From contig NZ_LT706940.1 in assembly GCF_900155525.1 (NCBI RefSeq), forward strand, positions 1 through 64,000: DNA of 64,000 nt, given 5' to 3'. Under the pieces are notes generated by a model. That model was not told the DNA's origin. It ran no database searches and saw only the letters and a list, made by a program, of their open reading frames with translations. The stretch is from Mailhella massiliensis (GTDB taxonomy: Bacteria; Desulfobacterota; Desulfovibrionia; Desulfovibrionales; Desulfovibrionaceae). A program made the position numbers and the translations under genes. Positions 40,288-53,064 of this stretch are shown here, in pieces. Position 1 is the stretch's first letter. The number at the start of each line of letters is the position of its first letter.

Positions 40288-41289
40288 CTACTTACGGAAG
40301 GTGGGCAGGTAGGCGTACAGAGCGGGAGAGCCGCCGGTGTGCAGGAAGAGCACGTTGGCGCCCTTGGGGAAGTGATCCTTGCGGATGAGGTCGATCATGC
40401 CGGCCATGGCCTTGCCGCTGTACACGGGGTCGAGCAGGATGGCTTCGGTACGGGCAAGCATCTTCACGGCTTCGATCATGCCGTCGTTGGGGATGGAGTA
40501 GCCGGGCTGATAGTAGTCGCCGTAGCACACGACCTTTTCTTCAGGAAGCTGCACGCCGGCGCCGATGTAATCGAGGGTGGCCTGGGCCAGCTTGTGCACG
40601 AGAGCCTGCTGCACGTTGCCGGGACGGCTCACGTCGATACCGGACATGGGGATGTCCATGTTGTTGCCGTAGAAGCCGGCGATCATGCCGGCATGGGTGC
40701 CGGCGCTGCCGCTGGGCACGATCACATGGTCGAAGTTGATGCCCATGGAGAACATCTGCTGCATGATTTCCTGCGCGCAGGAAACATAGCCCAGAGCGCC
40801 GATGGGGTTGGAAGCGCCGCCGGGGATGATGTAGGGCTTTCTGCCTTCCGCACGCAGCTTTTCCGCCACCTTTTCCATTTCTTCCATCATGGGAGAGCCG
40901 CCGGGCACCACGGTGATGCTCTTCACGCCCAGAAGCTGATACAGGAAGTTGTTGCCGGAAGCTTCGGGGTTGTAGCTGTCCTTCACGCGTTCTTCCAGCA
41001 CCAGATGGCAGTCGAGGCCTTCATGCACGGCCCAGGCGAGGGTCAGGCGGCAGTGGTTGGACTGCACCGCGCCGCAGGTGATGAGGGTATCGGCGCCCTG
41101 AGCGATGGCGTCGGCGATGCTGAAGTCGAGCTTGCGGGTCTTGTTGCCGCCGGCGCAGCCGGGGAGCAGGTCGTCGCGCTTGATGTACACGTTGACCTTG
41201 TTGCCCAGAGCCTTGGAAAAGTTGGGAAGATACTCGATGGGGGTGACTTCCTTGACATAGCCGCGACGGGGGAACTTGGCGAGATTCAT
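40288..41289 (-). CDS. D-cysteine desulfhydrase / L-cysteate sulfo-lyase / ACC deaminase-family PLP enzyme
   Basis: 333 aa, fold type II PLP enzyme. The PLP lysine lies in AGGNKTRKLDF, the phosphate cup in SGSAGTHAG, and the reactive-Ser region is AVQSNHCRLT. The C-terminal LLDPVYSGKAMAGMIDLI and FLHTGGSPALYAY match D-cysteine desulfhydrases and the related L-cysteate sulfo-lyase CuyA, which release sulfide or sulfite plus pyruvate and ammonia. Homology alone does not decide between them. Neighbouring aspartate-like racemase and dicarboxylate/amino-acid symporter genes would fit an aspartate-analogue substrate such as cysteate (inference). Confidence 0.85.
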   Translation of the reverse strand: MNLAKFPRRGYVKEVTPIEYLPNFSKALGNKVNVYIKRDDLLPGCAGGNKTRKLDFSIADAIAQGADTLITCGAVQSNHCRLTLAWAVHEGLDCHLVLEERVKDSYNPEASGNNFLYQLLGVKSITVVPGGSPMMEEMEKVAEKLRAEGRKPYIIPGGASNPIGALGYVSCAQEIMQQMFSMGINFDHVIVPSGSAGTHAGMIAGFYGNNMDIPMSGIDVSRPGNVQQALVHKLAQATLDYIGAGVQLPEEKVVCYGDYYQPGYSIPNDGMIEAVKMLARTEAILLDPVYSGKAMAGMIDLIRKDHFPKGANVLFLHTGGSPALYAYLPTFRK

Positions 41290-41403
41290 GGTGTTTCCTT
41301 CTCTTCAGGGTGAAAGCGGGACTCAGGGGGCGAATCTGCGGGCCCCGGCGGGAATCCCCGCACGGGAAAGCCCCGGGAAAAGCAGCCTGAGGTGCCGTTC
41401 GTT

Positions 41404-42219
41404 CTAAAAATCCGCAACCTGCTTAAGTCGTTCCGGGCAACTGGCCCGGATCAGTTCCTGCGCGAGCACGCTTGTGGCGTCCACGACGGGAGTATCGTAC
41501 AGAACGGACTCGGTGACCGCTACCGGAATTTCCGTGCAGCCAAGGAGTACGGCATCCACATGCCTTACCTCCACCAGACGGCGCGCGGCGTCAAGCAGTA
41601 TCTGCCGCGCACGGGGAGTCACCGGGTCGGAAAAGGCCTTGATGCCGAAGGCGGGATCGCTGATGGCGCGCTGCACCATGGCGCATTCCTCTTCATCGGG
41701 AAGTACGGGCTCAAGACCCGCCTTTTCCAGCGCATCCTGATACAGACGGGTACGGAGCGTGGCCACCGTGCCCATGAGCCCTATGCGCCCGGAACCGGGG
41801 CAGAGAGCGCTCACATGCTTCACCGCGCTTTCGATGATGGACACGAAGGTCACGTCAAGGCCGGTAGCCTGCAGGCGCTCCAGCGCGGTGTTCAGAATGC
41901 GGGGGCTGTGCGCCGTATTGCACGGCATACCTATGACCCTCGCGCCGTTTTCGGCAAGCTGCGCCATGATGCCGCCGATGTCCTCTCCCGGATTCTCCCT
42001 GGTTTCACCCAGCAGGAAGGCGGGCCTCTCCGGGATCCAGCCGGGGAAGGAATGCAGCATGATGGGCAGGTGCTCCTGATCCGTGCCGGCCTTCGTCCAG
42101 CGGAAGATCTTTCGCACGAGGTCATACCCCGCATAGGGGCCGAGCCCCCCCACGATACCTATGGTGCGGGGCTCGGGCAGATGATCGAAAAAGCGTTGAA
42201 CCACGGTTATTCCCTGCAT
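41404..42219 (-). CDS. aspartate/glutamate racemase-family protein
   Basis: 271 aa. The two catalytic cysteines of the cofactor-independent racemase family are present in GMPCNTAHS and LLGCTEIPVA. IGIVGGLGPYAGYDLVRKI opens the Rossmann-like domain. It interconverts D- and L- forms of an acidic amino acid or analogue. Its start overlaps the transporter gene by 13 nt, so the two are translationally coupled. Confidence 0.88.
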   Translation of the reverse strand: MQGITVVQRFFDHLPEPRTIGIVGGLGPYAGYDLVRKIFRWTKAGTDQEHLPIMLHSFPGWIPERPAFLLGETRENPGEDIGGIMAQLAENGARVIGMPCNTAHSPRILNTALERLQATGLDVTFVSIIESAVKHVSALCPGSGRIGLMGTVATLRTRLYQDALEKAGLEPVLPDEEECAMVQRAISDPAFGIKAFSDPVTPRARQILLDAARRLVEVRHVDAVLLGCTEIPVAVTESVLYDTPVVDATSVLAQELIRASCPERLKQVADF

Positions 42220-43415
42220 TCGCCGTTGTTTTCCAGCTTGGAAACCAGAAGGGCGCCGGTGGCGTCGCCGAGAACGTTGATGGTGGTGCGGGCCATGTCC
42301 ATGATACGGTCCACGCCGGCGATGAGGGCGATGGCTTCCAGCGGAATGCCTACCTGCGTGAAGACCATGGTGATCATGATGAGGGCCGCGCCGGGCACGC
42401 CCATGGAGCCGATGGAGGCGAGCACCGCCAGCAGAATGACGGTGAGCTGCTTATCCAGAGGCATGGGAATACCGTACACTTCCGCCGCGAAAATGGCCGC
42501 CACGCCCATGTAGATGGCCGCGCCGTCCATATTGATGGTGTTGCCGAGGGGGATGGAGAAGCTGGACACGGACTTGGAGGCGCCGAGCTTCTGCACGGAA
42601 AGCAGGTTGGAGGAAAGAGCCGCCGCGCTGGAGCAGGTGGAGAAGGAAATGATGAGAGGTTCGGTCAGTCCCTTCAGGAAGGTGGAAGGCGTAAGCCCGG
42701 CCACGCGGGCGCAGGGCAGATACACCGCGAGCACCTGAATGAGGCAGGCCAGATACATGACCGCCACCAGCTTGATGAGGGGCAGCAGCACGGAGAGACC
42801 GTGGTTGGCCACGGTGAAGGCCATGAGGCCGAACACGCCGATGGGGGCGTAGTGCATGACGATGCCCGTCACCTTGATCATGACTTCGGCGCAGGAGTCG
42901 AAGAACACGAAGGCGGGACGGCCCTTCTCACCCAGCATACTGAGCGCGAAGCCGAACAGGATGGCGAAGAAGATGACCTGGAGCATGTTGCCCTTGGCCA
43001 GGGCGTCGATGGGATTCAGGGGCACGATGTCCATGAGCACCTTGATGAGCGGAGGAGCGGAAACGTCCTTCACCGCAAGATTTTCCATGGAAAGCGTAAG
43101 CCCGAGTCCGGGACGGATGATATTGGCGAGAATGAGGCCGATGACCACGGCCACGGTGGTGGTGAGCAGGTAGTAGATCAGCGTCTTGGAGGCCACGCGT
43201 CCGAGTTCCTTCACGTCGCACACGCTCGCCGCGCCCGCCACAAGGGTGGTGAACACAAGCGGAACCACCACCATGCGGACCAGGGTGATGAACAGATCGC
43301 CGAGAGGTTTGAACCAGCTCGCGTCGATGCTGATGGAAGGAGCCATGGCGCCGACGATGACGCCGAGTAACATGCCGATGCCCATCTGGGCGGGAAGACC
43401 TAAACGCTTTGACAT
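42207..43415 (-). CDS. dicarboxylate/amino acid:cation symporter (DAACS family)
   Basis: 402 aa from ATG 43415. It has about eight membrane helices plus two re-entrant hairpins, with the family signatures SFSTCSSAAAL (serine-rich hairpin) and GNTINMDGAAIYMG (substrate/Na+ site). It probably imports aspartate, glutamate or a structural analogue together with Na+ or H+. First gene of the cluster, read from the promoter at 43705-43732. Confidence 0.93.
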   Translation of the reverse strand: MSKRLGLPAQMGIGMLLGVIVGAMAPSISIDASWFKPLGDLFITLVRMVVVPLVFTTLVAGAASVCDVKELGRVASKTLIYYLLTTTVAVVIGLILANIIRPGLGLTLSMENLAVKDVSAPPLIKVLMDIVPLNPIDALAKGNMLQVIFFAILFGFALSMLGEKGRPAFVFFDSCAEVMIKVTGIVMHYAPIGVFGLMAFTVANHGLSVLLPLIKLVAVMYLACLIQVLAVYLPCARVAGLTPSTFLKGLTEPLIISFSTCSSAAALSSNLLSVQKLGASKSVSSFSIPLGNTINMDGAAIYMGVAAIFAAEVYGIPMPLDKQLTVILLAVLASIGSMGVPGAALIMITMVFTQVGIPLEAIALIAGVDRIMDMARTTINVLGDATGALLVSKLENNGECRE

Positions 43416-47841: not shown

Positions 47842-47860
47842 AAAGAAAAAAGGAGGTTCC

Positions 47861-48724
47861 ATGAGTACTCTCGTTGTTGTTGCCTACCCCAATGAGTTTC
47901 AGGCAGAAGAAGTGCGTCTGCGCCTTCTTAAAATGCAGAAGGAATATCTTGTCGACCTGGAAGATGCGGTCATCGCCATCCGCAAGGAAAACGGCAGGAT
48001 CAAGCTGCTCCAGCTCCACAATCTCACCGGCGCGGGTGCGCTTTCCGGCGGCTTCTGGGGCCTTCTCGTCGGCCTTCTGTTCATGAATCCTCTGCTCGGC
48101 GCAGCCGTAGGCGCGGGAGCGGGCGCCGTTTCCGGGGCGCTGGCCGACGTGGGTATCGACGATGCCTTCATGAAGGACCTGGGCCGGAACCTCAGACCCG
48201 GCGGTTCCATGCTCTTCGTGCTTTTCCGCAGCATCACCATGGACAAGGCCCTGAAGGAACTGGAAGGCACGGGCGGCACCATCATACAGACCTCCCTTTC
48301 CCATGAAGATGAGGAACGCCTCCGCAAAGCCATGGACGGCGCCGACGCCGGCCATGAATGCGATGCCGCGGAAGAGGCCATCTCCCGCAATGCGGGCAAA
48401 AGTTCCAACCTGCGCTGCGCGCCTGTGGAAAACGCCCCCGACGATGAAAGCGAGTGCGACGCGGCGGAAGAAACCATCTCCAGAAACGCGGGCAAGGCGT
48501 CCAATCTCCGCTGCGGCGGCTCCGCCGGAGAAAAAGACGCTCCTGCGGAAGAATTTGCCGTGAACACCGAGTGCGACGCCGCGGAAGAAGCCATTTCCCG
48601 CAATGCCGGCAAGAACTCCAACCTGCGCTGCGCCCCGGCCGAAGAATCCGCCGGAAGCGAATGCGATCCTGCGGAGGAGGCCATTTCCAGAAACGCCGAC
48701 AGGAGCTCCAATCTGCGCTGCTGA
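47861..48724 (+). CDS. DUF1269-like glycine-zipper protein with four C-terminal C-x18-C repeats
   Basis: 287 aa behind a strong AGGAGG. Residues 1-155 match the DUF1269 layout: [20 protein letters not shown], a Gly/Ala-rich hydrophobic stretch (~56-95, [20 protein letters not shown]), then a charged helix. Residues 166-287 hold four copies of a 21-residue unit of the form ECDxAEEAxSRNA...SNLRC, at 166-186, 198-218, 237-257 and 267-287, separated by acidic linkers of 9-18 residues. All eight cysteines of the protein (167/186, 199/218, 238/257, 268/287) are the unit ends, and the last is the C-terminal residue. The DNA copies differ at many synonymous sites. The function of the tail is unknown; disulfide-linked loops, metal binding or modification are possibilities. 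Confidence 0.85.
48356..48721 (+). repeat. four diverged coding repeats (63 bp each) in the DUF1269-like gene
   Basis: Units at about 48356-48418, 48452-48514, 48569-48631 and 48659-48721. Protein identity between units is high, while codons vary (for example SRN as TCCCGCAAT or TCCAGAAAC), indicating old copies held by selection on the peptide. Confidence 0.9.
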
Positions 48725-48748: not shown

Positions 48749-48776
48749 GGCCGGGAATCTTTCCCGGCTTTTTTTT
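48749..48776 (+). terminator. terminator of the DUF1269-like gene
   Basis: GCCGGGAA-TCT-TTCCCGGC stem followed by eight T. Confidence 0.95.
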
Positions 48777-48898
48777 CGCCACCTTCCCCGGCATCACCGG
48801 GAAGAGACGCTCCGGCATCGACAAAAAAACGCCGGAAAACGCCAGGCCGGGAACGCCCCTCCCCGCGCCCGCTTTCGGGGAAGGGGCGGCGGCCAAGG

Positions 48899-50484: not shown

Positions 50485-52044
<1,560 letters not shown>

Positions 52045-52083
52045 TCCAGAGAATCTTCAATCCTTCCTTTTGAGGAGAACATC

Positions 52084-53064
52084 ATGTCCAGCAATGTCCG
52101 CCCCGAATCCATGGCCCGCATCAACACCGAGGCTCTCGCCCAGGCCTTCATCGAAGAACAGGTGAAGGCTCTGCGCGAACAGATCGGCGACAAGAAGGTG
52201 CTGCTCGCCCTTTCCGGCGGCGTGGATTCCTCCGTTGTGGCCGCCCTGCTCATCAAGGCCGTCGGCCGGCAGCTCGTCTGCGTGCACGTCAATCACGGCC
52301 TCCTGCGCAAGGGTGAACCCGAACAGGTGGTTGAAGTCTTCCGCAATCAGATGAAGGCCAACCTTGTGTATGTGGACGCCGTGGAACGCTTCCTGAACAA
52401 GCTCGAAGGCGTTTCCGAACCGGAGCAGAAGCGCAAGATCATCGGCGCGGAATTCATCCGCGTGTTTGAAGAAGAAGCCCGCAAGCAGGAAGGCATCGAA
52501 TTCCTGGCTCAGGGCACCATCTATCCCGATATTCTGGAAAGCGGCACCGTCAAGGCCCACCACAACGTGGGCGGCCTGCCCGAAGACCTGCAGTTCTCCC
52601 TCGTGGAACCGCTGAAGTTCCTGTTCAAGGATGAAGTGCGCGTGGTGGGCAAGGCCCTCGGCCTGCCCGACGGCATGGTGTACCGCCAGCCCTTCCCCGG
52701 CCCCGGTCTCGGCGTGCGCTGCCTCGGCGCCATCACCCGCGACCGCCTCGAAGCCGTGCGTGAATCCGACGCCATTCTGCGTGAGGAATTCGCCAAAAAC
52801 GGCCTGGAAGGCAAGGTATGGCAGTACTTCACCGTGGTGCCGAACTTCAAGTCCGTGGGCGTGTCCGACGGCAAACGCACCTTCGCCTACCCGGTGATCA
52901 TCCGTGCCGTCAACACCGTGGACGCCATGACCGCCACCGTGGAAGACGTGCCCTTCTCCCTGCTGCAGCACATCACCGACCGCATCACCAAGGAAGTGAG
53001 CGGCGTCAACCGCGTGCTCTTCGACCTTACGCCGAAGCCCGTGGGCACCATCGAGTGGGAATAA
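52084..53064 (+). CDS. stand-alone GMP synthase ATP-pyrophosphatase subunit (second copy)
   Basis: 326 aa. It corresponds to the ATP-pyrophosphatase plus dimerisation domains of GuaA (P-loop LSGGVDSS at 43-50, [49 protein letters not shown], end GTIEWE) with no glutaminase domain. The segment after the P-loop reads [11 protein letters not shown] instead of the [11 protein letters not shown] of the full-length protein. The start has GAGGAG (TTTTGAGGAGAACATC). It follows guaA by 39 nt. It could use free ammonia, pair with a separate glutaminase, or have another role. Confidence 0.9.

Follow-up and report, generated by a model that had tools for sequence, protein, structure and literature searches.

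Tandem cysteine-framed 21-residue units on a DUF1269 membrane protein of Mailhella: an apparently undescribed peptide that looks like a functional module

The C-terminal tail of a DUF1269 membrane protein of Mailhella massiliensis, a member of a group of sulfide-producing gut bacteria, consists of four tandem 21-residue units, each framed by two cysteines, and this peptide seems to be a genuine, so far uncharacterised functional module. As a tentative reading, we favour a multivalent docking tail with units closed by a thiol clasp. The protein is encoded in the window, i.e., the whole stretch of 64,000 nucleotides analysed here (contig NZ_LT706940.1, positions 1 to 64,000), which is part of a genome of 3.47 Mb in 28 contigs (G000) with a single DUF1269 match. 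DUF1269 was already known. The repeat unit is apparently undescribed: no description was found in the literature, queries with the unit peptides, with PF06897 and with DUF1269 plus glycine zipper were all without match, and the literature that combines Mailhella and cysteine-rich concerns camel tissue. The gene and its tail comprise the following features.

47850..47856, + strand: Shine-Dalgarno-like aaggagg ahead of the ATG, read from the sequence
47861..48724, + strand: gene encoding the 287-residue DUF1269 protein and its four-unit tail; no other DUF1269 match occurs in G000
48038..48334, + strand: DUF1269 match (PF06897), residues 60-158, E 2.5e-37
48356..48418, + strand: unit 1, 21 residues
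48419..48451, + strand: linker 1, 11 residues, variable
48452..48514, + strand: unit 2, 21 residues
48515..48568, + strand: linker 2, 18 residues, variable
48569..48631, + strand: unit 3, 21 residues
48632..48658, + strand: linker 3, 9 residues, variable
48659..48721, + strand: unit 4, 21 residues, ending at the last residue of the protein
48749..48777, + strand: terminator-like stem and T run 3' of the gene; such sites number two in the region around the gene, not above shuffles (mean 2.4)

The gene looks real because it combines the DUF1269 match with a Shine-Dalgarno-like sequence and with orthologues that adjoin Der or guaB in relatives. Translation of 47861-48724 places the stop codon at 48722-48724, and no promoter-like site was called ahead of the gene. 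In most relatives examined, conservation of the surroundings includes the Der side, the guaB side or both, as far as the contigs extend; the simple gene caller used for this comparison mistook frames on the opposite strand for genes at several points. The second DUF1269 copies of two genus genomes (G001 and G002) are found at a different location.

Membership of DUF1269 is clear from the PF06897 profile, which is matched over positions 1-99 of 100 with 127.7 bits (cut-off 26.9). A glycine-rich stretch is located at about residues 57-95 of this host domain, with a Gly-zipper_YMGG match (E 0.00044) under the cut-off of that family. Of 47 DUF1269 loci collected by a scan of genome contigs, the nearest being uncultured Mailhella and Desulfovibrionaceae records, 35 align with the window protein over the domain, and these 36 rows were used for an AlphaFold2 model of the whole protein. 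The host domain is predicted as strand-helix-strand-strand, a helical glycine-rich stretch and helix-strand-helix-strand-helix, the glycine-rich stretch being modelled poorly. Foldseek returned nothing for the domain at E up to 0.001. With VIA-align, many ferredoxin-like matches were obtained, none above Z 8.0, among them CutA1 (Z up to 7.1), the C-terminal domain of MgtC (Z 6.3) and chain D of two alternative complex III entries (Z 6.5 and 6.3), which we infer to be ActD; for matches in this range of Z, the common fold may suffice as an explanation. According to passages of a structural description (PMC5928083), both termini of ActD are in a small cytoplasmic domain, whose single four-stranded sheet is built from two beta-alpha-beta halves on either side of two membrane helices; these passages do not mention a repeat tail. 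The window protein may be ActD-like, as its predicted order of elements fits two beta-alpha-beta halves flanking two membrane helices, at the Z scores given and with a poorly modelled hairpin. It differs in that its sequence does not match the solved chain and that no complex-III genes are among the nine scanned neighbours. The actinobacterial dormancy proteins Hyp730 / Rv1234 are comparable by topology, being portrayed as double-pass membrane proteins with an ActD-like topology in passages of PMC7856521, where cysteine repeats are not mentioned. By analogy with the ActD layout, the tail is probably on the cytosolic side, where stable disulfides would be less likely.

Each of the four units starts with E-C-D and ends with N-L-R-C, and 18 residues separate its two cysteines. 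In the translation, the 287-residue protein has cysteines at positions 167, 186, 199, 218, 238, 257, 268 and 287 and no others: all eight are unit ends, and the final residue of the protein is a cysteine. The four cysteine-framed units and their coordinates, as put forward in a preliminary description of this DNA, are thus borne out by the translation. Compared pairwise (six pairs), the units share 16-20 of 21 residues, and 6-9 of the 16-20 codons for shared residues differ. NG86 gives dN of 0.02-0.14 and dS of 0.79-1.72 and hence a dN/dS of about 0.03-0.11, which is noisy for units of 63 nucleotides. Since synonymous codons differ widely between units at such ratios, the peptide is under selection. 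This had been proposed from the diverged codons and conserved peptide, and it agrees with the shuffles and with the conservation of units versus linkers described below. Four C-x18-C pairs occurred in 4 of 20000 composition-preserving shuffles of the tail, a test that understates the repeat signal because it ignores the residues inside the pairs. The net charge after residue 158 is -16, and the tail most plausibly consists of short structured peptides joined by flexible, acidic linkers.

Such a tail is not normal for DUF1269 proteins, in line with the earlier claim. When the unit-bearing loci L002-L005 and the fragment L048 are set aside from the 47 loci, 42 unit-less relatives are left, which are short-tailed: 36 are cysteine-free, six have two cysteines, and two of the 42 exceed 200 residues. 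Within the genus, sampled as 19 genomes (Mailhella records), 13 genomes encode 15 DUF1269 proteins, ten of which bear units. The copy number per protein is four in G000, G011 and G014, three in G013, G015 and G016, two in G012 and G018, and one in G003 and G005; both proteins of G001, both of G002 and that of G007 are without units. In the single-unit proteins, the spacing is C-x19-C, two residues follow the last cysteine and a CCC motif lies upstream. In these proteins (L110 of G005, L111 of G003), a conserved YYNNTFE.AH.D..EREAVYGGPS.EAEKAL follows the CCC and precedes the unit. Different, cysteine-free C-terminal tails are found in the unit-less proteins L006 (G002), L007 (G001) and L102 (G007), those of L006 and L007 being alike (SSVVAVEP...ATDPVTRA). 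This tail therefore seems to be a hot spot of change.

A midpoint-rooted tree was built from residues 1-160 of 18 proteins (the 15 of the genus and three outgroups, with outgroup L022 left out). It unites the ten proteins with units in a single group at a support of 94/94, slightly below the 95/80 that earns a star from the tool; the branches among the eight tandem proteins are mostly unresolved. From this grouping, the tail was probably gained once within the genus, with changes in copy number afterwards. Where proteins of equal unit number are compared with units matched in order, the units are conserved far beyond the linkers. The three pairs of four-unit proteins share 74/84, 59/84 and 58/84 unit residues versus 21/42, 12/40 and 18/41 linker residues, the three pairs of three-unit proteins 59/63, 57/63 and 60/63 versus 12/31, 11/31 and 25/28, and the two-unit pair 34/42 versus 4/11. 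Overall, identity is 69-95% in the units and 30-50% in the linkers in six of seven comparisons; the linker value of 89% in the seventh comes from the third three-unit pair, which is nearly identical over its whole length. A lineage-specific tail of little function would agree with the restriction to part of one genus and with its absence from three genomes of the genus that do encode the protein. We consider it very unlikely, as residues are kept despite high synonymous divergence, units are far more conserved than linkers, and the same module recurs on separate proteins. The scenario that repeat copies are absent from close relatives and evolve neutrally holds for its first half, given the unit-less proteins of G001, G002 and G007, and fails for the second, the units being constrained where present.

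These separate proteins, overlooked in the preliminary description, consist almost solely of diverged units and occur in three genus genomes. The first (G005:C14) has 128 residues with four diverged units and no DUF1269; a search of 288 family genomes with it revealed two more, at G003:C71 (124 residues, four units) and G004:C52 (93 residues, three units), in addition to DUF1269 tails. In G004, a genome only 77% complete, no DUF1269 gene was found. Gene neighbours differ among the three genes, and nothing near them names a partner. Of the 11 stand-alone units, six have three cysteines and five have two, the third usually following at a distance of three residues (LYC-x-x-C). The G003 and G004 proteins have lost the first cysteine of their last unit, where a cysteine is found at position 10 instead. 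Even where cysteines have moved, every unit thus retains at least two. All three proteins have histidine-rich N-termini (MRHHRAHQC, MSQHHHQC and MTKHHNHQC). The eight genomes with at least two units on DUF1269 gave no further strong unit match, and weak partial matches in the genus are those in G000 (E 0.44), G018 (0.256) and G005:C167 (0.00116). The occurrence of the same unit on separate small proteins shows that it is a transferable module.

The anatomy of the unit was derived from 38 units (25 tandem, two single and 11 stand-alone). Across both protein types, I/V9, R11, S17 and L/M19 are present in all 38, and each unit has at least two cysteines. Cysteine occupies position 2 in 34 units and position 1 in two, and position 21 in 36. 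R11 and S17 are therefore more constant than either cysteine position, a point that, like the variation in copy number, had also escaped the preliminary description. Position 3 is D/S/T/N and position 6 is E/D in 36 of 38 units each. D/S/T/N followed by E/D at this distance is the pattern of a helix N-cap box, so that each unit may start a capped helix. AlphaFold2 likewise predicts a single short helix in each unit, at about positions 4-12, and leaves the remainder of the tail free of such elements. Confidence is low, the mean pLDDT being 54.7 when the tail is modelled by itself (three rows) and block means being 41-74 beginning with residue 161 when the full-length protein is modelled. The helix is not significantly amphipathic, the mean moment of 0.42 versus 0.31 in shuffles being equalled or exceeded in 23% of them. 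Together, the constant I/V9, R11, S17 and L/M19 and the N-cap pattern point to recognition or fold and not to thiols alone, and copy numbers of one, two, three and four imply that the units function independently of one another.

As a possible but doubtful alternative, the tail would store or shuttle zinc, copper or iron at the membrane in the manner of a metallothionein, its capacity growing with the number of units. It would fit the variable copy number and the extra C-x-x-C in six of the 11 stand-alone units, as well as the CCC motif of the single-unit proteins and the histidines adjoining cysteines. A histidine stands two residues ahead of the first unit's cysteine in seven of the eight tandem proteins, and this, with the histidine-rich starts of the stand-alone proteins, agrees with metal binding as judged from sequence. 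CutA1, to which the fold of the host domain is matched, is a divalent-cation tolerance protein, yet it is one of many ferredoxin-like matches. Storage alone would not need R11, S17, I9 and L19 to be more constant than each cysteine position.

The cysteine at the start of the helix in nearly all units and the terminal cysteine could also indicate a reactive thiolate, the units then carrying sulfane sulfur or acting as a redox switch in a loosely DsrC-like manner in these sulfide producers. DsrC, a thiol carrier in sulfite reduction, has two cysteines on a mobile C-terminal arm, with a spacing and repeat number that differ from those of the window tail. The parallel is functional only: a Pfam scan of the window protein at E up to 1 does not list DsrC, and G000 has a separate DsrC gene. 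DsrC is found in 17 of the 19 genus genomes, with and without units, hence a specific link between DsrC and the units was rejected, and no sulfur-relay gene is among the scanned neighbours. We rate this relay as rather unlikely. A trisulfide form of DsrC is referred to in passages of PMC6470260. Somewhat related is the idea of a new thiol micro-module of sulfide-producing gut bacteria, a helix-capped cysteine loop that would carry sulfane sulfur or a soft metal and hand it to a common partner. A membrane hairpin protein would bear it in one to four copies and a separate small protein in three or four; this idea is about equally improbable.

The nine neighbours scanned with Pfam are a CuyA-like PALP enzyme, a racemase, an SDF symporter, an AMP-binding enzyme, Der, a GNAT protein, GuaB, GuaA and a second GuaA-like protein. 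None of them points to a partner of the tail. Conserved tandem units with variable linkers in between, and serine, threonine and cysteine in every unit, might suggest a precursor whose units are cores to be cut out or modified, either RiPP-like or secreted. Cutting or modification into peptides had been raised in the preliminary description, but no peptidase or peptide-modifying enzyme is recognised among the nine neighbours, which include no modifying enzyme or transporter for a RiPP precursor; the whole unit is conserved, and the 'leader' would be a membrane protein. We consider this idea very unlikely.

Two side observations concern these neighbours. Positions 40291-43415 of the window (- strand) hold a probable cysteate-use cluster of CuyA, a racemase and an SDF-family symporter. 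The D-cysteate sulfo-lyase CuyA scores 520.7 bits in NCBIfam (cut-off 450), and the racemase beside it reaches 173.1, near but below the CuyB cut-off of 190. Such a cluster would supply sulfite to sulfide production. At 50485-53064 (+ strand), two GMP synthase genes lie 39 bases apart, the first encoding a full GuaA and the second a form that lacks the glutaminase domain; at the loci of G003 and G005 (L162, L163), a short GuaA form is recognised next after the guaB region.

Outside the genus, the unit was searched with a 22-row profile built from these units, which makes E-values within the genus good by construction. Of 348 genomes from the order, 11 have matches below 1e-8, and these 11 all belong to the 19 genus genomes; none of the other 329 has a strong match (best 7.4e-4, partial). 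Among 395 phylum genomes, the best match outside G000 is 1.9e-4 and partial. For some genomes, the number of candidates scored in these larger searches was limited to 30, to 25 (order search with the profile) or to 22 (phylum search). The weak partial matches outside the genus were taken as chance; the frames in G133 and G213 have 63 and 246 codons and no further units. Neither the G005 stand-alone protein nor the window tail matches viral contigs, the former has no match in plasmids or phages (tblastn, E 0.1), and the single phage match of the G003 protein (E 0.08, 29% identity) was taken as chance. A mobile or viral origin was set aside, with nothing in plasmids, phages or viral contigs beyond that match. 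A known domain with settled function was looked for in Pfam, NCBIfam and PDB sequences and not found. The unit gives nothing over a curated cut-off in Pfam or NCBIfam, the tandem protein matches DUF1269 only, and the best PDB sequence is a partial match to yeast UPS1 (E 0.24). For the stand-alone proteins, all Pfam matches are under cut-off, the best being Macro (E 0.003), KDM6 GATA-like (E 0.0067) and ZFPM2 CCHC (E 0.024), and NCBIfam had no match for the one protein scanned. A DksA/TraR-type zinc finger, suggested by R..GP.S.LYC..C in stand-alone units, was rejected, being absent from Pfam matches at E up to 5.

Our preferred reading remains the docking tail with clasped units. A two-helix membrane protein with a DUF1269, ActD-like layout would have gained a multivalent cytosol-facing tail, probably once within the genus. 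Each unit may be an independent module in which a short helix with an N-cap, spanning about positions 3-12, turns back into a stretch S-x-L-x-C. Its pre-helix and end cysteines would close the unit, most likely by forming a reversible disulfide or by binding a soft metal ion. I9, R11, S17 and L19, being constant, would hold the fold and dock a partner, several copies would add avidity, and some relatives would put the same module on a separate small protein. The clasp is suggested by the cysteine pair kept in each unit, and recognition by non-cysteine residues that are more constant than the cysteines; clasp chemistry, docking and partner are putative. Against this reading, no partner, ligand or gene that co-occurs with the units was found, the tail models have low confidence and the helix is not clearly amphipathic; moreover, two cysteines per unit and odd numbers of units are hard to reconcile with a four-cysteine metal site of the simple kind.

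DUF1269 is a widespread membrane family that seems sparsely covered in print, the papers found with its name using it once each and none of them in title or abstract. A constrained, lineage-specific tail provides a handle on this family, as its partner or ligand would point to the role of DUF1269. As the unit is a transferable module, short peptides would be directly testable for metal, redox state and partners.
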